This document shows positions 1 to 8,373 of a stretch of 64,000 bases of DNA, piece after piece. How positions within the stretch are numbered: position 1 is the first letter of the stretch; the number at the start of each line of letters is the position of its first letter. This DNA comes from Methylophilus rhizosphaerae (lineage in GTDB: Bacteria; Pseudomonadota; Gammaproteobacteria; Burkholderiales; Methylophilaceae), in the NCBI RefSeq assembly GCF_900100975.1, contig NZ_FNFX01000001.1:313820-377819 (forward strand), in the 5' to 3' direction. The translations under genes were made by a program, and so were the position numbers. The notes below the pieces were generated by a model that ran no database searches, was not told the origin of the DNA, and was given only the letters and a program-made list of their open reading frames with translations.

Positions 1-456
1 ATTTACAGATAAAGAACCAAACCCTGCACGTGCAATGTCATTTACCTCGAAGTACTGTGTACCTGCTGTATCAGGATCCCAATCCGCATCATATGCTGTA
101 AAGCGTGCACCAAAGATGCAAGAGGTTTTAGCTGCATTTCTCCATACCCGATCTAAAACATAACCGACAGTTACGCCGTTGATGGTCGCACTGCGTGTTT
201 TGGACGCAGCTAATGTATAACCAGCCCCAGTCGGATCTGCAGACTCGCTTGTTGGAAATACGGCACAAGTATTGTTAGCAGTAGTAGTTGGTAAAGTTGG
301 GATGCTAGATCCAAAATTCCCAGTGGTATTGCACGAGGTATAAGCCGAGCTGGTGAATCCAGTAGTCGGAATCGCCACTAATCCAGTAGCCATACTCTGC
401 ATAGAAATAAAACTCAAAGCACCTAACACTGCAAGTTTAATCGTTACACTTTTCAT
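1..456 (-). CDS. Secreted hypothetical protein, C-terminus outside the window
   Basis: The frame is open from the ATG at 456 to the window edge (152 codons, no stop), so only the N-terminal part is visible. A strong AGGAG ribosome-binding site lies 6-7 bases upstream. Residues 1-23 form a classic signal peptide (basic start, hydrophobic core, M-A-T cleavage region). The mature part is rich in Thr, Ser, Ala and Gly and has four Cys in the visible portion, which fits an exported or surface protein. I do not recognise a family. The mature N-terminus resembles the short ORF at 575-709 (shared pattern A-T-x-L-V-x-I-P-x-x-G-F-x-x-S-A-Y). It is preceded by the conserved element at 491-553 and lies downstream of the TonB receptor on the same strand. 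Confidence 0.72.
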   Translation of the reverse strand, partial: MKSVTIKLAVLGALSFISMQSMATGLVAIPTTGFTSSAYTSCNTTGNFGSSIPTLPTTTANNTCAVFPTSESADPTGAGYTLAASKTRSATINGVTVGYVLDRVWRNAAKTSCIFGARFTAYDADWDPDTAGTQYFEVNDIARAGFGSLSVN

Positions 457-490
457 AATTACTCCTTTGAGACATTTTGCAAAGCACTGA

Positions 491-553
491 GGTAGCCTGC
501 ATCACCCATTCCCACACCCTTCTAGCCCCTCGTCAGTTCTAAGCAAGGTGTGG
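491..553 (-). promoter_or_regulatory. Conserved leader element A, probable structured RNA
   Basis: This element sits 34 nt upstream of the ATG at 456 and is read on the minus strand. It has three parts: a 7-bp stem (547-553 with 512-518, all seven pairs), a 25-nt loop block (522-546), and a 3' block at 491-511. The loop block matches element B (751-813) at 22 of 25 positions. Between this element and the start codon a CUUUG/CAAAG hairpin could partly cover the AAAGGAG ribosome-binding site. I could not match it to a known riboswitch class from memory. Confidence 0.55.
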
Positions 554-574
554 CAAATTTCTAGTACAAATACT

Positions 575-709
575 TTAAAAAAACATTAAGGCGTAAGCCG
601 ACTCACTGAAACCAGCAACTGGTATCACGACCAGCTCTGTTGCAAAAGCAAATGTTGTATTGAACGCACATAGTCCCAAAACTGCCATCGCCAAAATCAG
701 TTCTTTCAT
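575..709 (-). CDS. Short secreted peptide, truncated paralogue of the 1-456 protein
   Basis: A 44-residue ORF starts with ATG at 709 after a GGGAG ribosome-binding site. It has a signal peptide (residues 1-23, ending F-A-F-A) and a mature start A-T-E-L-V-V-I-P, which matches the start of the 1-456 protein at about 11 of 18 positions. The similarity stops at the residues S-A-Y, after which the frame ends quickly (L-M-F-F, stop). It is either the stump of a duplicated gene that lost its body or a genuine short secreted peptide. The intact ribosome-binding site and conserved upstream element suggest it could still be translated. Confidence 0.5.
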   Translation of the reverse strand: MKELILAMAVLGLCAFNTTFAFATELVVIPVAGFSESAYALMFF

Positions 710-750
710 CTTCTACTCCCTGGAAAAAGGTACAATAAGCAAGCATTTGT

Positions 751-813
751 GGCTGCCCGCATCACGGATTTCCGTCATTTCTGGTCCCTCGTAAGTTCTA
801 AGCAAATCACGGG
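751..813 (-). promoter_or_regulatory. Conserved leader element B, probable structured RNA
   Basis: This is the second copy of the element at 491-553. It lies 41 nt upstream of the ATG at 709 and downstream of the TonB receptor stop. The 25-nt loop block (781-805) is nearly identical to that of element A. The flanking 7-nt arms (806-812 and 772-778) differ from element A at five of seven positions on each side but still pair at six of seven positions. That is the pattern expected of a conserved RNA stem. A local ACGG/CCGU hairpin could compete with the long stem. Confidence 0.55.
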
Positions 814-909
814 AATTTAATCAAGGTACGCCACAAATGCCCTTTTTCATGCTCCCCAGAAGTTAACTAAACTCACGCAAGTTTTCACTAGGAGTTTTTC
901 CCGCCTGTA

Positions 910-3900
910 TTAATCCGGCTGGAAATGCCAATTCAAGCTAAACCAGACTCCCCTTGGTGCCCCTGGCGAAATAAAATTCGTGCTACGCCAGTCTGCTGAA
1001 TTATGGTTATAACCATCAGGCCCGATATTGCCTAACACGCTTGGTGAAAAAGGATTTCTCCCCAGACGTCCAGCCGTAAAGTACTCTTTATCAAATAAGT
1101 TGGTGACAAGTACAGTAGCCGTCCACTCTTTATTGAAGCGATAACTGCTTTGCAAGTTAAAAGTCGCATAACCAGGCGCCTTGCCTGGGTTAGTGGTAGG
1201 CGCTAATGTGCGGGTATACACCTCGGTCATGGTTGTACCATTTCCGCTACCATCATCTACCTGTCGAAAGGCGGTGAAAGTTCGTGAAACACCCACCTGA
1301 TGCTCGTTATTCTCGTTGCCGCGCATAAAACTATCAGAATGCGCGACCATAGTCAGACCCACATTCCAGTTGTCAGTCAAGTCATAGCTCAGGCTAGCAT
1401 TCAGGTTGTGTAGTGAAACACCAGGCATACGATCACCAGGCTTAACATTAATGACACCCTCGCCCAATGTATTCACAGTTCTAGAGCTACTGTTATCTTC
1501 ACTGAACATCAGAAAATCATCCTGAAAGGTAGCATCGGTCAAACCGTAATTCAGCCCCCAATGCAACCGATCAATATTGCCTTTAAAACCTGCTTCAAGC
1601 CCACGACGACGAGTTTTACCCACTGTGTCAAAGAATCCTCGCCCGTTGCTAATGGCCACAAAATAGATGTCGTCCTTGAGATCGGTTTGATACGCGTTGA
1701 TATTCCATTGCGTGTTTTCACCCCATGTACCTCTCATCCCAACTTCATAACTGGTTGCTTTAATTTGCGGAAGATATGGGTCACCTGACAGGGTGGTTGG
1801 TAAGGTGCACTGGCGATTTTCGGCAATACTTTTGGGCACTTCATAAACATTACCATTGCCATCGGATTGAAAAACACCTGAAGGTCTATGATCCAAAGCA
1901 CAACCAAGCTCAATCACACTGGGAACACGCGTACCTTGTGCCACATTAGCGTAAATATTTAAATCAGGCCTGGCTTGCCAACTTGCCCCCAACTGCGGAT
2001 TGAAAGAGTTGAATTTAAACTTCTCAGTTTCCGCACTATCTAGTGCATTGGTGATTCTAGGTGTGGTGTATTGTGTGGAAACGCCGGTACAAGCTGGGTC
2101 AGTACAAATATTGTAACTATCAGGATAGCCAATGACATCGCCAATTTCATAGGCACCTATGCCACGTCGTGCAGCAATCTTGTTTTTTGTTTGCGTATCA
2201 TTATAACGGCCTGACATGCTGAAGTGCCAGTTATCGACGGGGCTCCAGGTTTCACTAAAATAGATGCTCTTAGTAGTTTGGGTCCCTGAGAAATCGTTAT
2301 TACTAATCCACTGATCTGCGCCTACAAACATGGGGTGAATATCATCAGGAGCCAAATAAGCATTACGCTGTGCATCCAGTAAGCCTAGACGTTGCTTATT
2401 CGCATAAGTGGCATCAGCAGCATCTATGGACGCACCAACCATAAACTTATGATGGTCAAGATTCCAGTTAAACTGAACTGACCCGCCATTAGTCACTTGG
2501 TCTATCTGATTATCGGTAAATATAGCTGTTGGGATGTAATATTTTTTACCGGTATCGGGATCAACTTCGTATACTACCCCCCCTGTTCCACTACCAGCGC
2601 CATCCACAGTAGCGATAGTGTTGGAATTAGGCGCAAAATATGAAAAAGCCCCATCCATTGTAGCTTTATCTCGTAATTGAGTAGCTAAACAATTTGCGTT
2701 GTTAGTTGGGGCAGTAAAAATAACAAAATTTTTATAATTGACCCCTCCCACAGTTGAGTAGTACCAGTTTTGATCCGAGAAATAAATATTTTCCCCCGGA
2801 GCCGTAGGAAAGCGTCTTAAACTCAAATCACCTGAAAAATAAGACTCTTCACCGCCAAATGTTGTACCTGAATAGTCTGGAGCACTTCCATGGGCAGCAC
2901 CATCAACACCAGTATTTCGATTGTAAATTTTATTTTCGTAAAAATTTCTCCAAAAAGTAAACTGCTCCGTAACAGCATTTACATAGTACTGAGGTAACTC
3001 TTGATTGAACTCTCCTAATGAAAAATCAGCAGTTCCATTTGCAAAATAATCTAGTACTAGCGGACTACTAAAGAAATCATAACCATCAGCCTCACTTACT
3101 GACACCACTACATAATCAGGCAACCCATATTTATTGTTCGCACTACTGTTAAATAAACAGGTATATTGCTCAGTAGAGGAGGGGATACGGCGCGCAAGGG
3201 CATCATCTTCAATACCCATAAACGCATCTGCCCCTACCTGATGACGGCGGCTATTTCTGCGATAAACCTGACCTGTAATACTGAAAGTTTCCGTTGCCTG
3301 AAATGCACCTGATAACTGGAATTGAGCTAAGTTATTATCGGTTTTATCAGGTGCGGTAAAGATACTTGTCGGATCTTGAGCGTACATCTCATTAGGTAAT
3401 AAACCATTACCGGTCAATTTCGTTTGCACGAGTAACGTACTCAAATTTAAATCCAGTCTATCCCCTCGATAACTGGCCTTACCAAAAGCCTGATTAACTC
3501 TGCTGGGTGAGTTCTGTCGCCAGCCATCCTCCAGAAAAAAGTTGCCCGCACCAAACAAAGCAAGCTCACCATTATTCCAGCCCCCCTCAACTTGGAGTTG
3601 TTTGCGGCCAAATGAACCAGTGAGAATATCAACGTCGGCACCAGCGTTATTGAAACCATCTTTGGTTTTCAGTGAGAAAGCGCCGCCAAGTGTATTTAAC
3701 CCAAATATCGGATTGGAACCGGGAAACACATCTATGCTAGCCAATGCATTTAAAGGCAGCATGTCCCAGTTCACCACATCGCCAAATGGTTCGTTTACTC
3801 GGATACCATCAATAAACACGCTCAAACCTTGCGGCGTACCAATCTGCGGACCAGCAGTAAAACCACGATATTGCACATCCATCTGGAATGGGTTGCCTTG

Positions 3901-4684: not shown

Positions 4685-4990
4685 ATGCGAATCATTGCCG
4701 TGAGCTATCTACGCTCATTCTGGGAGAAGAACCTAAATGCAGAGCAGCATTTAAAGTCGTGGATTGATGAGGTGAAACAGGCAAATTGGAGTCAACCGAC
4801 AGATATCAAAGACCAATATCGTAACGCCAGCATCCTCAAGAACCGCCGGGTAGTCTTCAACATCAAGGGCAATGACTATCGATTAGTGGTCTCAGTGGCG
4901 TATCGCTACCAGGCCATCTATGTGAAGTTCATCGGCACGCACGCCGAATACGATCTGATTAATGCCGAAACCGTTGAGATGGAGCACTGA
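4685..4990 (+). CDS. higB: HigB-type mRNA interferase toxin
   Basis: This 101-residue protein has the HigB_toxin layout of E. coli YgjN/HigB: an N-terminal helix, a central Y-R-N-A-S-I-L-K-N-R-R-V-V-F-N-I stretch, the G-N-D-Y-R-L-V-V strand, and a C-terminal F-I-G-T-H-A-E-Y-D motif. Proteins of this family cleave mRNA on the ribosome and are neutralised by HigA. The ATG at 4685 is the first in frame and lies directly behind the -10 box, with no ribosome-binding site visible. The antitoxin gene starts one base after this stop codon, in the toxin-first order typical of higBA. Confidence 0.88.
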   Translation: MRIIAVSYLRSFWEKNLNAEQHLKSWIDEVKQANWSQPTDIKDQYRNASILKNRRVVFNIKGNDYRLVVSVAYRYQAIYVKFIGTHAEYDLINAETVEMEH

Positions 4991-4991
4991 G

Positions 4992-5378
4992 ATGGAAATT
5001 CGTCCAATTTACACAGAAGCTGACTACAAGACTGCCCTACATGAGGTGTCTGCTTATTTTGACAGGGAGCCTGAGCCAAACACTCCTGACGGTGACCGAT
5101 TTGAAATACTGCTGACCTTGGTAGAAGCATACGAAGCAAAACATTTCCCTATCGACTTGCCTGATCCAGTCGAGGCCATCAAATTTCGTATGGAACAGGC
5201 AGGCCTTGGACCGAAGGATTTAGTACCAGCGATTGGTCGATTGAACCGTGTTTATGAAGTGCTCAACCGTAAAAGACCATTGACTCTCAATATGATATGG
5301 AATCTCCATGAAAAACTTGGTATTCCTGCCGAGTGCTTAATTCAACCACCCAAGCATCGTATTACAGCTCAATCCTAA
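4992..5378 (+). CDS. higA: HigA-type antitoxin with helix-turn-helix
   Basis: This 128-residue protein starts at the ATG at 4992, one base after the higB stop. An in-frame upstream start inside higB (4962) is less likely. The N-terminal half is acidic and helical and, by analogy to E. coli HigA, binds the toxin. The C-terminal half carries an Xre-like helix-turn-helix (about residues 70-118: G-P-K-D-L-V-P-A-I-G-R followed by V-L-N-R-K-R-P-L-T-L). It should bind HigB and repress the promoter through the palindrome at 4658-4672. Confidence 0.87.
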   Translation: MEIRPIYTEADYKTALHEVSAYFDREPEPNTPDGDRFEILLTLVEAYEAKHFPIDLPDPVEAIKFRMEQAGLGPKDLVPAIGRLNRVYEVLNRKRPLTLNMIWNLHEKLGIPAECLIQPPKHRITAQS

Positions 5379-5548
5379 TTTGTATCAGATAGTTGTAATC
5401 AATCACTGATATGAATACCTGATTCAAGTTATTCCGCTTGCTACATGAAAAATCACCAAGTTTTCACTTGACGGTTAGTGTCGCAACAGCCTTAAAATGC
5501 GCGTACATATCGGACTTGGGGCTGCTTAAACCTGAAGCACTGCCGATA

Positions 5549-5580
5549 TTTATCGGCGTCCATCTGCGGTTCATTAAACA
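5549..5580. repeat. Degenerate interspersed repeat upstream of an antitoxin gene
   Basis: TTTATCGGCGTCCATCTGCG and the bases after it resemble one arm of the repeat family seen complete at 29090-29121 and 41418-41447. It ends 13 bases before the ATG at 5594, so it forms part of the leader of that gene. A related copy in the same orientation lies at 6051-6090. Confidence 0.5.
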
Positions 5581-5593
5581 GGGGGGAAGTAAT

Positions 5594-6040
5594 ATGAAAA
5601 AGACTCACGTTAACAAACTCGCAGCATTTGATACCGCAGCGTATTTGACCAGCGAAACCGCGATTGCGGCTTATTTGACCGATATTATTGAAGCGAATGA
5701 CCCTGGCCTACTGGCAGATGCGCTAGGCACCATTGCCCGCACACGCGGCATGTCAGAAATTGCCAATGAAACCGGGATTGGCCGCACTGCCCTTTATAAA
5801 GCTCTGCGCTCTGACAGTGCCCCCCGCTTTGACACCATTAACAAAGTCTGCCAGGCATTAGGCCTGCAACTCATTGTACAACCGCAAGATGCTAGTATCT
5901 ACGGCGTGCCAGATGAGGAAAACCCTGAATTGACGGCCAACGACTTCAAACAGATGCGCCCCCTGGAGGAGTTCTTAGCCGAACTAAACCTAACGACACC
6001 ACCAAAAAAACCGACTAATAAGCATAAAAAAGCCGCTTGA
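5594..6040 (+). CDS. Orphan Xre-family antitoxin (HI1420-like) with extra C-terminal motif
   Basis: I start this at the ATG at 5594, behind a GGGGGGAAG ribosome-binding site, rather than at the upstream in-frame start at 5438, which has no support. The protein is 148 residues. Residues ~10-105 match the addiction-module antidote family of H. influenzae HI1420: F-D-T-A-A-Y-L, then A-L-G-T-I-A-R-T-R-G-M, then a helix-turn-helix I-G-R-T-A-L-Y-K-A-L. These normally follow an HI1419/RelE-type toxin gene, but none is present. Residues ~112-132 (N-P-E-L-T-A-N-D-F-K) resemble a toxin-binding segment of BrnA-like antitoxins, and the tail is Lys-rich. The gene is bracketed by two same-orientation repeat copies (5549-5580, 6051-6090). 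Confidence 0.78.
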   Translation: MKKTHVNKLAAFDTAAYLTSETAIAAYLTDIIEANDPGLLADALGTIARTRGMSEIANETGIGRTALYKALRSDSAPRFDTINKVCQALGLQLIVQPQDASIYGVPDEENPELTANDFKQMRPLEEFLAELNLTTPPKKPTNKHKKAA

Positions 6041-6050
6041 GCAGGGTTAT

Positions 6051-6090
6051 TTTATCAGCGTGCATTGGCGCTCATCTGCGGTTTATTAAG
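6051..6090. repeat. Degenerate interspersed repeat, second copy in the toxin-antitoxin island
   Basis: TTTATCAGCGTGCATTGGCG followed by CTCATCTGCGGTTTATTAAG is a diverged, slightly longer copy of 5549-5580 in the same orientation. It again ends just upstream of a small antitoxin-like gene (ATG at 6114). The two copies form direct repeats around the 5594-6040 gene. Confidence 0.5.
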
Positions 6091-6113
6091 CTGGGAAAGA
6101 AAGACCAAACTTT

Positions 6114-6329
6114 ATGAAAAAACAGCTGCACGACATTGACAATGTACCGGAACAGACTGTTGAACTCACCAAAAGACTGAAATCAATTGATCGGATCGCC
6201 CCACAACTGACCATAGAACATTCAAGCAGTCAACGAATTGGAGTCATCAAAGGAAAACTTGCAATTCCCGATACGATTGATGCACATAATGAAGAAGTGC
6301 TGCGGCTGTTTACAGGCGCTCCCGCATAA
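6114..6329 (+). CDS. Small antitoxin-like protein (VapB/Phd-type tail), orphan
   Basis: This 71-residue protein starts at the ATG at 6114, with GGGAAAGAAAG upstream as the ribosome-binding region. Its C-terminal half (R-I-G-V-I-K-G-K-L-A-I-P, then D-T-I-D-A-H-N-E-E-V and L-F) has the pattern common at the end of small antitoxins paired with PIN or RelE-type toxins, where it clamps the toxin. No toxin ORF follows: the next genes are mazEF. It may be a leftover antitoxin or one acting in trans. The assignment rests on the C-terminal pattern only. Confidence 0.5.
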   Translation: MKKQLHDIDNVPEQTVELTKRLKSIDRIAPQLTIEHSSSQRIGVIKGKLAIPDTIDAHNEEVLRLFTGAPA

Positions 6330-6367
6330 CACCACGCTTGGTGATTTTATCCACCTACCCACAAATA

Positions 6368-6406
6368 TCCTACTTTAATAAAACAATAAGTTATACTAAA
6401 ATAGGA
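6368..6406 (+). promoter_or_regulatory. mazEF promoter region with inverted repeat
   Basis: TCCTACTTTA (6368-6377) and TAAAATAGGA (6397-6406) are inverted copies matching at 9 of 10 positions. A TATACT -10-like box (6392-6397) lies between and into the second arm. It is placed about 30-60 bases upstream of the mazE ATG, where the AbrB-type antitoxin would be expected to autoregulate. Confidence 0.45.
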
Positions 6407-6431
6407 CAAGCTCAAAAACCTGGAGACTGCA

Positions 6432-6677
6432 ATGTTTCAAACCTTACGAAAAGCGGGTGGATCACTCGTCATGACCGTGCCAAAAACTTTTATTGATCAG
6501 AATGGGCTTGGTGAAGGCTCACAAGTAAAACTACATTTGCTTGGTGCAAAGATGACGGTTGAGGCACCTACCAGGCCACGTTATAGCTTGGCCGACCTGA
6601 TGGCTGAAATGCCGGAAGGATTACCGCGTGTCGAGGGCTGGGATGAAATTCCCTCGGTGGGCCTGGAGAACATGTGA
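6432..6677 (+). CDS. mazE: MazE/AbrB-family antitoxin
   Basis: This 81-residue protein has an N-terminal swapped-hairpin AbrB domain (residues ~1-48: L-R-K-A-G-G-S-L-V-M-T-V-P-K then L-G-E-G-S-Q-V). The C-terminal segment (L-A-D-L-M-A-E-M-P-E-G-L-P) should wrap around the toxin. The ATG at 6432 follows a CTGGAG ribosome-binding site. The stop TGA overlaps the toxin start (TGATG), indicating translational coupling. It resembles the chromosomal ChpS/PemI branch. Confidence 0.85.
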   Translation: MFQTLRKAGGSLVMTVPKTFIDQNGLGEGSQVKLHLLGAKMTVEAPTRPRYSLADLMAEMPEGLPRVEGWDEIPSVGLENM

Positions 6678-7024
6678 TGGCATACGTGCCAAACCGTGGA
6701 GACCTCGTGCATCTCGATTTCGACCCTGCATCAGGATGGGAAATGAAAGGCCCTCACTTTGGCCTTGTATTGAGTGGAAAAGTCTTCAATCAACAAGGTT
6801 TGGCATTGGTTTGTCCGATTTCCCAGGGCGCTGCAGCGGCCTCACGCACGTATGGGACAGTAGTGACACTTATGGGGGCAGGAACCGATACTCAAGGCGC
6901 AATACATTGCCATCAGTTGAAATCGCTGGATTGGCGCGCGCGAAATGTACACCTAAAGGAAACCGTGCCGCAATATATAGTAGATGAGGCTTTAGCCAGA
7001 ATCGAAGCCATTCTTTTTGAATAA
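6677..7024 (+). CDS. mazF: MazF/PemK-family endoribonuclease toxin
   Basis: This 115-residue protein has the MazF fold signature: Y-V-P-N-R-G-D-L-V-H-L-D-F near the start, G-P-H-F-G-L-V-L-S, then C-P-I-S-Q and the Q-L-K-S-L-D-W segment. Family members cut single-stranded mRNA at short motifs. I chose the ATG at 6677, which overlaps the mazE stop by one base. A GTG one codon earlier is possible. It forms a two-gene operon with mazE. Confidence 0.88.
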   Translation: MAYVPNRGDLVHLDFDPASGWEMKGPHFGLVLSGKVFNQQGLALVCPISQGAAAASRTYGTVVTLMGAGTDTQGAIHCHQLKSLDWRARNVHLKETVPQYIVDEALARIEAILFE

Positions 7025-7095: not shown

Positions 7096-8373
7096 TCACT
7101 TGAATGAGTGACCGTTTTCTTTAAATAATTGGTGCTGGAACCTTTGTGTATTGCTTGCGATGTGCTGATGTAACCGATCTATCATGGTTTTCTCTGTACC
7201 AGGAGAAGCGATTGCATTCATTTCTTCTGCAACAGCACTCAAGGTAGCCAGTAAGTTGACCGCAATATCTTCGGCGACGGTGAGTATGTATTTTGATTTA
7301 GATCCCCACGACCTGGCCATTTGCGTGACTTGATCTTGATGAATGTTTGATGGCTTATTTTCGCCGCCAATATTGAATGCAAATTTTCGGGACAGTCCAG
7401 GGTAGACTGAGGTGGAAAGTATGTCATAGAACGGTGTTAGCCTCACCTCACCTTCAGCGGTGTAATAGATGGATAGATTTTTTGCATGGCTATCGTTATT
7501 GCCTACGTAAAGATTAAAAAATAGCCACTGAATAAACCTTTTCGTGTCCGCGGCAGTTACGCCACACTCTTGAAGCATCTCCCGACATCTCAGCAGCGTT
7601 GGGCCACCATCTGACTCATATTTAGTTGTCGACGGTTTTCCATCGATCTGACATAAGTCTAGCTGGTGTAGTCGTTTAATCCGTCCGTGAGTGTCTATAG
7701 TTCTGTCATATCTTTTAATGACACATGCCTTTGCGATTGGTTGATAACTAACCTCGGCCACGCCTAACCCCAAGCGATCAGCGAGTGTCATGGTACAGGT
7801 TTCATTAATGGCCGATGCCCAAACGCCTTCCACATCCCTGATATCAGGTTTAATAATATAGGTAGATGGGGCGCTGCCCAGAGGCAGGAGAAGATTTCCA
7901 TCATGGTCGATATGTATACTGAGTTTTCTTTGTGCACCAGCTAATGAGACTCTAAGTCCATCCTCTTCCTGGATTGTGCGAATAATCCCTTGCTGGTGGG
8001 TGAATTCTTCCGCGATATCCTGCCAGGTGATCGGTTGGTATTGTGGAGGCTGTGGTGTTTCATCATCAGGTAAAATAGTGAGATCACTTGCGGTATCACC
8101 ACCTATCACACTCAATAGGCCAAATGTGGAAGTGGCTTGATGTTTAAGTTTTAATAATTCCCGAATGCCAGCTTCAGGAAGCAGATTCTCAAAATAGGAC
8201 TCAACAGCTGCTCCAGAATGCTCTGCCTGAGATAGAGGTAATTGGGGTGATATGCCAGTGTGATGATTGCTCTGCCATTGATGGGCGTAAATAAACTTAA
8301 TGGGCGTTTCATTCATTAATGTTCCGACCAAGTCACCCTCTCTATAGACGCCAAGCTTTTTAACTGTAGCCAT
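7096..8373 (-). CDS. hipA: HipA-family Ser/Thr kinase toxin
   Basis: This 425-residue protein has an N-terminal HipA domain (residues ~1-105) and a C-terminal kinase domain. Key elements are: the nucleotide-binding segment around S-L-A-G-A-Q-R-K; the catalytic motif G-N-N-D-S-H-A-K-N-L, where Asp is the expected general base; and the metal-binding F-Y-D-I-L-S. In E. coli HipA phosphorylates glutamyl-tRNA synthetase and causes growth arrest and persistence. Its start overlaps the hipB stop by one base. All catalytic elements look intact. Confidence 0.9.
   Translation of the reverse strand: MATVKKLGVYREGDLVGTLMNETPIKFIYAHQWQSNHHTGISPQLPLSQAEHSGAAVESYFENLLPEAGIRELLKLKHQATSTFGLLSVIGGDTASDLTILPDDETPQPPQYQPITWQDIAEEFTHQQGIIRTIQEEDGLRVSLAGAQRKLSIHIDHDGNLLLPLGSAPSTYIIKPDIRDVEGVWASAINETCTMTLADRLGLGVAEVSYQPIAKACVIKRYDRTIDTHGRIKRLHQLDLCQIDGKPSTTKYESDGGPTLLRCREMLQECGVTAADTKRFIQWLFFNLYVGNNDSHAKNLSIYYTAEGEVRLTPFYDILSTSVYPGLSRKFAFNIGGENKPSNIHQDQVTQMARSWGSKSKYILTVAEDIAVNLLATLSAVAEEMNAIASPGTEKTMIDRLHQHIASNTQRFQHQLFKENGHSFK

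Follow-up and report, generated by a model that had tools for sequence, protein, structure and literature searches.

The 64,000-nt stretch of Methylophilus rhizosphaerae DNA analysed here, hereafter the window, carries on the minus strand of its first part a gene for a TonB-dependent receptor, followed by two copies of a putative structured RNA element, each ahead of a gene or gene remnant for an exported protein (Table 1). The receptor has an STN-like N-terminus that scores 24.7 bits, below the Pfam cut-off of 28.4, and its comparison with PDB sequences returned three siderophore or metallophore receptors at E-values (best 2.1e-5) too weak to name a substrate. The initial annotation of this DNA had placed the two elements before two secreted paralogues; this description fits gene A, whose 308-aa product has a signal-peptide-like start, but not gene B, of which only a 44-aa remnant is left. 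On the far side of the receptor, genes for a HigB toxin, an HI1420-type antidote, MazE/PemK and HipA adjoin it (Pfam; window 4685-7024 on the plus strand and 7096-8373 on the minus strand).

Table 1. Coordinates of the receptor gene, RNA elements and exported-protein genes in the window
Feature	Position	Strand	Remarks
Gene A, first part of the reading frame (308-aa protein, signal-peptide-like N-terminus)	1..456	-	Runs past the window edge; best match to protein profile A3 in its own genome
Element A, whole RNA	479..579	-	101 nt; diverged copy; model R1 54.2 bits
H4 hairpin of element A, degenerate	479..500	-	Read and aligned
Central arm P2/P3 of element A (CCACACCTT..AAGGGTGTGG, TTAG..CTAG)	512..553	-	Covarying stem of the initial annotation
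Gene B, 44-aa paralogue remnant	575..709	-	Counterpart in genome G008 has 306 aa
Element B, whole RNA	739..846	-	108 nt; downstream of the TonB-receptor gene, ahead of the gene B remnant; model R1 79.7 bits; in alignments A1 and A2
H4 hairpin of element B (GCGGGC..GCTTGC), then TTATTGTA	739..760	-	Terminator-like by consensus scan
H4 loop of element B (CCACAAAT)	745..752	-	Partner of the H1 loop
H1 loop of element B (ATTTGTGG)	831..838	-	Complementary to the H4 loop; pair 13-181 significant under the tree-based null
TonB-dependent receptor, 1186 aa	910..4470	-	Directly upstream; Pfam barrel 4.3e-37, Plug 4.7e-16

Direct reading reproduced the core of what had been described for the two elements. 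The 25-nt blocks TTGCTTAGAACTGACGAGGGGCTAG (element A) and TTGCTTAGAACTTACGAGGGACCAG (element B) are identical at 22 of 25 positions, the 7-nt arms pair at 7/7 positions in A (CACACCT with GGGTGTG, one of them G-U) and at 6/7 in B (CCGTGAT with ATGACGG), and the elements as first drawn end 34 and 41 nt ahead of the ATGs at 456 and 709. Their boundaries (491-553 and 751-813) proved too short, because both end hairpins of the RNA lie at or past those ends and the element is thus longer in both directions. What had been noticed is the middle of a longer RNA, a real observation that was understated. Element A is the more degenerate copy, with a shortened 5' hairpin and weak complementarity between its terminal loops; its counterpart in genome G008 lies at L002:2578-2677.

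Architecture and range of the RNA family

A 19-mer scan of named genomes found 31 stretches. In 25 of them the remainder of the element is present as well; these come from Methylophilus, Methylobacillus, Methylovorus, Methylotenera, unclassified relatives and a metagenome-assembled genome labelled Gammaproteobacteria (L035). The other six (L033, L043, L044, L052, L054 and L061) lacked the rest of the element by eye, were read as chance and were left out of the first alignment. That alignment (A1) holds 35 copies, from which covariance model R1 was built; since both window copies are among these 35, their R1 scores are no test of the model. A second alignment (A2) takes in 55 copies with E<=1e-6 from 45 sources, namely the 35 and 20 further ones, and an additional copy (L120:8960, 37.7 bits) was counted for gene context and left out of A2.

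Across the 55 aligned copies the element measures 100-132 nt and folds, in order, into a 5' hairpin (H1), a long covarying arm (P2/P3) and a nearly invariant 3' hairpin (H4). In the 35-copy alignment, H1 reads GGGC-ATTTGTGaact-GCCC in the strongest cases; P2, to which the stem first noticed in the window belongs, pairs AATTCAaCCGCAAC with GTTGYGGTGAATT; P3 pairs TTAG with CTAA around a conserved loop, AACTYACRAGG; and H4 reads GCAGGC-AGCCACAAAT-GCCTGC, after which come ATTNTA, the SD sequence and the start codon.

With window positions 451-853 as query, a plain DNA search found matches in 29 of the 149 related genomes (E<=0.001), and many of the matches centred on query positions 89-123, corresponding to window 765-731, outside the coordinates first given for the elements. 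R1 matched 40 of 187 Methylophilaceae genomes with one to three matches per genome at E<=0.001; we discounted one match (33.5 bits, genome G211), which falls within a frame that looks, by reading, like an ABC transporter, leaving 39 genomes. A profile of the secreted protein (A3) likewise matched 40 of the 187 genomes, one of them (G011) weakly (2.1e-7), and the remaining 39 are the same 39 genomes that carry R1. In wider samples, searched with stricter Infernal filters that lose weak matches, R1 was found in 7 of 399 genomes of the order, all of the same family and none outside it, and in 1 of 369 genomes of the class, the source genome itself. The Gammaproteobacteria-labelled assembly L035 (NVVP01000017.1) carries three tandem element-plus-gene units in a cluster that is Methylophilaceae-like.

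No Rfam 15 family accounts for the element, which the initial annotation had likewise been unable to place in a known class. At the curated gathering scores, Rfam 15 recognises five tRNAs in the window and nothing for the element; permissive scans gave no match at E<=5 in window 1-1000 and none at E<=1 in loci L073, L074, L077 and L097. A literature search covering titles and the beginnings of abstracts found nothing there that points to this element. Together these results describe a conserved and, to judge from its alignments, structured RNA without an Rfam match and with a narrow range in the samples searched.

Covariation, strand and loop-loop pairing

The claim of a covarying stem before the two genes held up and can be extended, as related genomes contain many more copies with compensatory changes. 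Among the 55 copies, 153 paired cells changed on both sides compared with 49.4 in shuffled alignments, and the covariation score was 0.283 against 0.143; neither value was reached in any of 500 shuffles. Overall, 86.8% of cells were paired (78.8% shuffled), 23 pairs varied on both sides compared with 15.9 after shuffling, and pairing fell to 29-43% when the partner was shifted by 1-3 columns. P2 cells were 86-88% paired, with 13 of the 14 P2 pairs changed on both sides; H4 cells were 97.5% paired and H1 cells only 73%.

We also applied a tree-based null in the manner of R-scape, with random substitutions on a FastTree tree and APC-corrected G scores. Restricted to the 36 proposed pairs, the test gave 9 pairs at E<0.05 with all 55 copies (seven in P2, pair 92-133 in P3 and the loop pair 13-181) and 8 pairs with the 47 copies left after dropping 8 odd ones. 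None of the H1 pairs was significant in this structure-set test, the best being 6-41 (E 0.20 and 0.09). When all 5,671 column pairs were tested, none reached E<0.05 with 300 null alignments and one did with 60; 7 of the 10 top-scoring column pairs fall within the proposed structure. Because P2 and P3 were drawn from 35 of the same sequences, the tree result for these helices is support and not an independent test.

The balance of G-U wobbles and A-C mismatches bears on the strand. On the sense strand, G-U outnumbers A-C in P2 (58:10), H4 (22:6), P3 (13:7) and H1 (20:13), and this asymmetry argues that the folded molecule is most likely the sense-strand RNA. Lower-scoring R1 matches occur at 21 places on the opposite strand, as expected because the element is a near-palindrome.

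The loops of H1 and H4 are complementary in sequence and covary. Their pairing was proposed on the 35 copies, in which pair 13-181 is always G-C, and is absent from R1. Among the 20 further copies, 9 have G-C at this pair, 7 A-U and 1 G-U, while 2 are unpaired there and 1 has a gap; 7 of the 20 show compensatory changes within the loop-loop pairing, for instance ATTTATG with CATAAAT in both L130 copies and ATTATGG with CCATAAT in L141. Altogether 113 of 128 loop-loop cells are paired in these copies, compared with 37 of 107 to 47 of 126 (35-38%) when the partner is slid by 1-2 columns. An unbroken complementary run of at least 6 between the 5' end and the H4 loop occurs in 43 of the 55 copies, a count taken without a chance control. 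The loops of L134:7147 pair only out of register, and those of window copy A pair poorly.

An extended duplex between the 5' and 3' ends in place of the two hairpins is thermodynamically favoured in many copies yet opposed by column 6. Covariation of this column is seen with the position that it faces in H1 (6-41, p 0.006), but not with the one opposite it in the duplex (6-190, p 0.60), a pattern that favours a pair of hairpins in contact through their loops over a single long helix. Two copies, L106:8912 and L105:7194, point toward the duplex instead, as their H4 is damaged and the outer duplex pairs are kept; they make it ambiguous which state, hairpins or duplex, is selected.

Gene context and the exported proteins

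Of 56 copies, 47 are followed by a secreted-protein gene or its remnant, 4 by an RTX gene and 5 by neither, so that 51 stand directly ahead of, and share the strand of, a secreted-protein or RTX gene. Spacing to this gene is nearly fixed: among the 47 of 54 copies that could be scored (seven have no SD/start match), the start codon lies 22-31 nt past the element in 46, and at 25 or 26 nt in 27, the exception being a copy 58 nt ahead of an RTX gene. The extra copies between a secreted paralogue and an RTX gene (L134:7147-7256, L114:6404-6516, L130:6120-6230 and L131:9481-9594) precede the start of the RTX gene by 26, 58, about 90 and about 120 nt, a looser spacing than that for secreted-protein genes. 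The five copies with neither gene behind them (L107:7334-7447, L125:7894-8023, L102:10812-10922, L105:6947-7054 and L105:7194-7306), three of which sit right behind a receptor-like gene, were possibly orphaned by loss of the following gene.

For 33 of 54 rows, the nearest upstream gene is receptor-like, with a frame length of about 840-1290 aa and a gap of -3 to 175 nt between its stop codon and the element; in the other rows it is a secreted paralogue (10), another large protein (3), or none, unresolved or too far away (8, including three L035 rows). The proposed link to a TonB receptor is thus borne out as one of position, and anything beyond position is conjecture. Pfam confirmed the cluster receptors of the window and of L130, and RTX genes in L130 and the window genome. 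Some tandem arrays have a separate element copy for every exported-protein gene, and sometimes for the RTX gene too; in L035 the receptor is followed by three successive element-paralogue pairs and then by an RTX-like frame. Many second paralogues among the A3 matches have no R1 match ahead of them.

In L130, Pfam identifies a sigma-70-region-4 protein and a FecR-like protein ahead of the receptor, and frames that by reading have a similar size and start precede the receptor in L105, L107, L108 and L125. The toxin-antitoxin genes of the window occupy the place of L130's sigma factor and FecR pair. A PrtD-type exporter follows the cluster in the window genome, and T2SS genes follow it in L117.

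The exported protein has no Pfam or NCBIfam match, and its profile matched PDB sequences at E>=1.2 only. The structure predicted for the 313-aa M. methylotrophus homologue is mostly beta (mean pLDDT 80.0), and a fold search with this model, not one of the window's own protein, gave no PDB match at E<=0.001. Distant relatives of the protein were found in 9 genomes outside the family; a search with R1 of nine loci, from 7 of those 9 genomes plus G011 and a second G050 locus, gave a single match at chance level (E 0.51, L189). G011, where the gene lies beside another TonB receptor, and G050 hold weak distant relatives without the element, with a PEP-CTERM signal in one tested protein each. Distant relatives stand in tandem at L190:5908-8612 and L191:6628-8428, where the one protein tested at each locus carries a PEP-CTERM signal; the L190 set follows a TonB-receptor gene without the RNA element. 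These occurrences suggest a wider family of receptor-linked exported proteins.

Candidate mechanisms and comparison with known systems

The spread of R1 among relatives, the compensatory changes and the near-fixed distance to the downstream gene all agree with the original suggestion of a cis-regulatory RNA. From this comparative evidence we consider the element very probably a structured RNA that controls the gene behind it in cis, and it probably sets how much exported protein is made. It could do so by attenuation, RNA processing or ribosome access, on which the 3' end of the element offers some information. At least 5 T occur in the 8 nt after H4 in 29 of 56 copies, compared with 8.3 expected from shuffled tails; TTTT occurs within the first 9 nt of the tail in only 10 of 56; of 54 tails, 51 have A at position 3 and 47 have A at position 8; and two scans for terminators returned 2 and 1 matches, near the 1.1 and 0.9 of shuffles. 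The conserved A residues and the scarcity of TTTT make H4 at best a poor terminator.

A hairpin that covers the ribosome-binding site, which had been raised for element A, is not a feature of the family: the mean predicted probability that the SD sequence is unpaired is 0.50 with and 0.50 without the element (47 copies), and it is 0.40 and 0.41, respectively, in window copy A. As predicted SD accessibility is unaltered by the element, we rejected SD sequestration as a general mechanism. Two further candidates were dropped: a short upstream ORF through the 3' part, read by eye, because the P2-H4 linker varies in codon and frame, and a CsrA-type site in the P3 loop, because several copies have no GG.

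A switch-like arrangement may be envisaged in which the receptor and exported-protein genes share a transcript and the RNA folds while it is made. H4, with the U-rich stretch behind it, would then form a leaky barrier shortly before the ribosome-binding site, either a weak attenuator or an element acting on the 5' end or on ribosome access; a factor at the conserved P3 loop could stabilise or break the pairing of the H1 and H4 loops and so change the barrier, and the amount of exported protein would come to differ from that of the receptor. We put forward this modulation of an H4 barrier by loop-loop contact tentatively, as a plausible mechanism that falls a little short of an even chance.

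The same position could serve an element that senses nothing. A constitutive RNase-processing or mRNA-stability element would protect a 5' end so that the exported-protein mRNA outlasts the receptor mRNA, in keeping with the intercistronic position and a gap to the receptor stop that shrinks to -3 nt, the AU-rich conserved tail right behind a stable hairpin, the separate copies per gene in some tandem arrays and before the four RTX genes, and the absence of SD sequestration. Conservation of the H4 and P3 loops and covariation between the terminal loops exceed what a generic stabilising hairpin needs, and we regard this explanation as credible but on balance unlikely.

The most specific form of the switch reading is that the family is a new class of conditional RNA switch, in which two terminal hairpins, touching through their loops, would enclose a long arm that serves as sensor. 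Such a switch would respond to the substrate of a signalling TonB receptor, or to the receptor's state, and set the amount of exported protein that their common operon yields, so that uptake and secretion would be coupled in methylotrophs. Taken with all these parts, it is an improbable conjecture. Somewhat more doubtful still is a protein-binding leader, on which a regulatory protein, possibly a product of the operon, would sit at the P3 loop or H4 and control translation; the near-invariant H4, the conserved apical loop of P3 and the narrow taxonomic range would suit such a leader, but the identity of any binding protein is speculation.

The hexamer ATTNTA just past H4 (e.g. window 731-738) is conserved beyond T-richness and reads on the opposite strand as a -10-like box, TANAAT. 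Were it part of a promoter, an antisense RNA would run through the element. The boxes match TATAAT at a mean of 4.5 of 6 positions, the best -35 match averages 3.1 of 6 compared with 2.6 in shuffles (54 tails, of which the two from the window, L145, were read with an offset of one base), and one scan match, TTTTCA-18-TACAAT, occurs in L111. The -35 signal is nonetheless weak, promoter-like matches do not exceed shuffles (3 vs 2.2 in L111, 0 vs 1.7 in the window) and the excess of G-U over A-C speaks for folding of the sense strand, making an antisense promoter very unlikely. Least credible of all is a DNA-level element, either a mobile inverted repeat (MITE or REP/BIME) or an attC-like recombination site, for although H1 and H4 are near reverse complements, that is, inverted copies, and weaker R1 matches lie on the opposite strand, a genome holds at most three R1 matches, the G-U bias falls on one strand, and the copies are not dispersed at unrelated loci but stand, in 51 of 56 cases, directly before secreted-protein or RTX genes and on their strand.

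Set against known systems, the preferred reading, a cis-acting control RNA, has several partial counterparts. Hairpins between genes of an operon that stabilise or process the transcript raise the expression of one gene within it. They share the position of the present element and a possible effect on the relative expression of neighbours, but here the loops are conserved in sequence, covariation extends over about 110 nt, and the element recurs before successive genes in some arrays. The has hemophore operon comprises FecI/FecR-like regulators, a signalling TonB receptor, a secreted protein and a T1SS. The order of regulators, receptor, exported protein and PrtD-type exporter is similar in the present clusters, whose exported protein, unlike that of the has operon, has a Sec-type-looking N-terminus and no PDB fold match; a literature search for hasR, hasA and stem-loop together found no paper.

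Like riboswitches, the element appears to be a conserved structured RNA close before a gene, and it resembles the orphan cis-regulatory motifs in Rfam (riboswitch candidates) in its covariation, short distance to the start codon and single gene context. It differs from them in lying between genes, often right behind the receptor stop codon, and not at a promoter-proximal 5' end. Guanidine-II and purine riboswitches likewise have two hairpins with pairing loops (see also PMC7544219), whereas the hairpins here flank a long third arm and have no Rfam match.

The RNA family is tied to a single uncharacterised receptor and secretion cluster of Methylophilaceae, some of them named cultured strains, which makes testable both the signal to which this cluster answers and how bacteria uncouple the amounts of a receptor and an exported protein encoded by neighbouring genes. 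If the element responds to a ligand, it would constitute a new riboswitch class; if not, it would be a compact device for balancing an operon. Its kind, a cis-acting structured mRNA element, is known; its architecture and gene setting are new to the extent of these searches.
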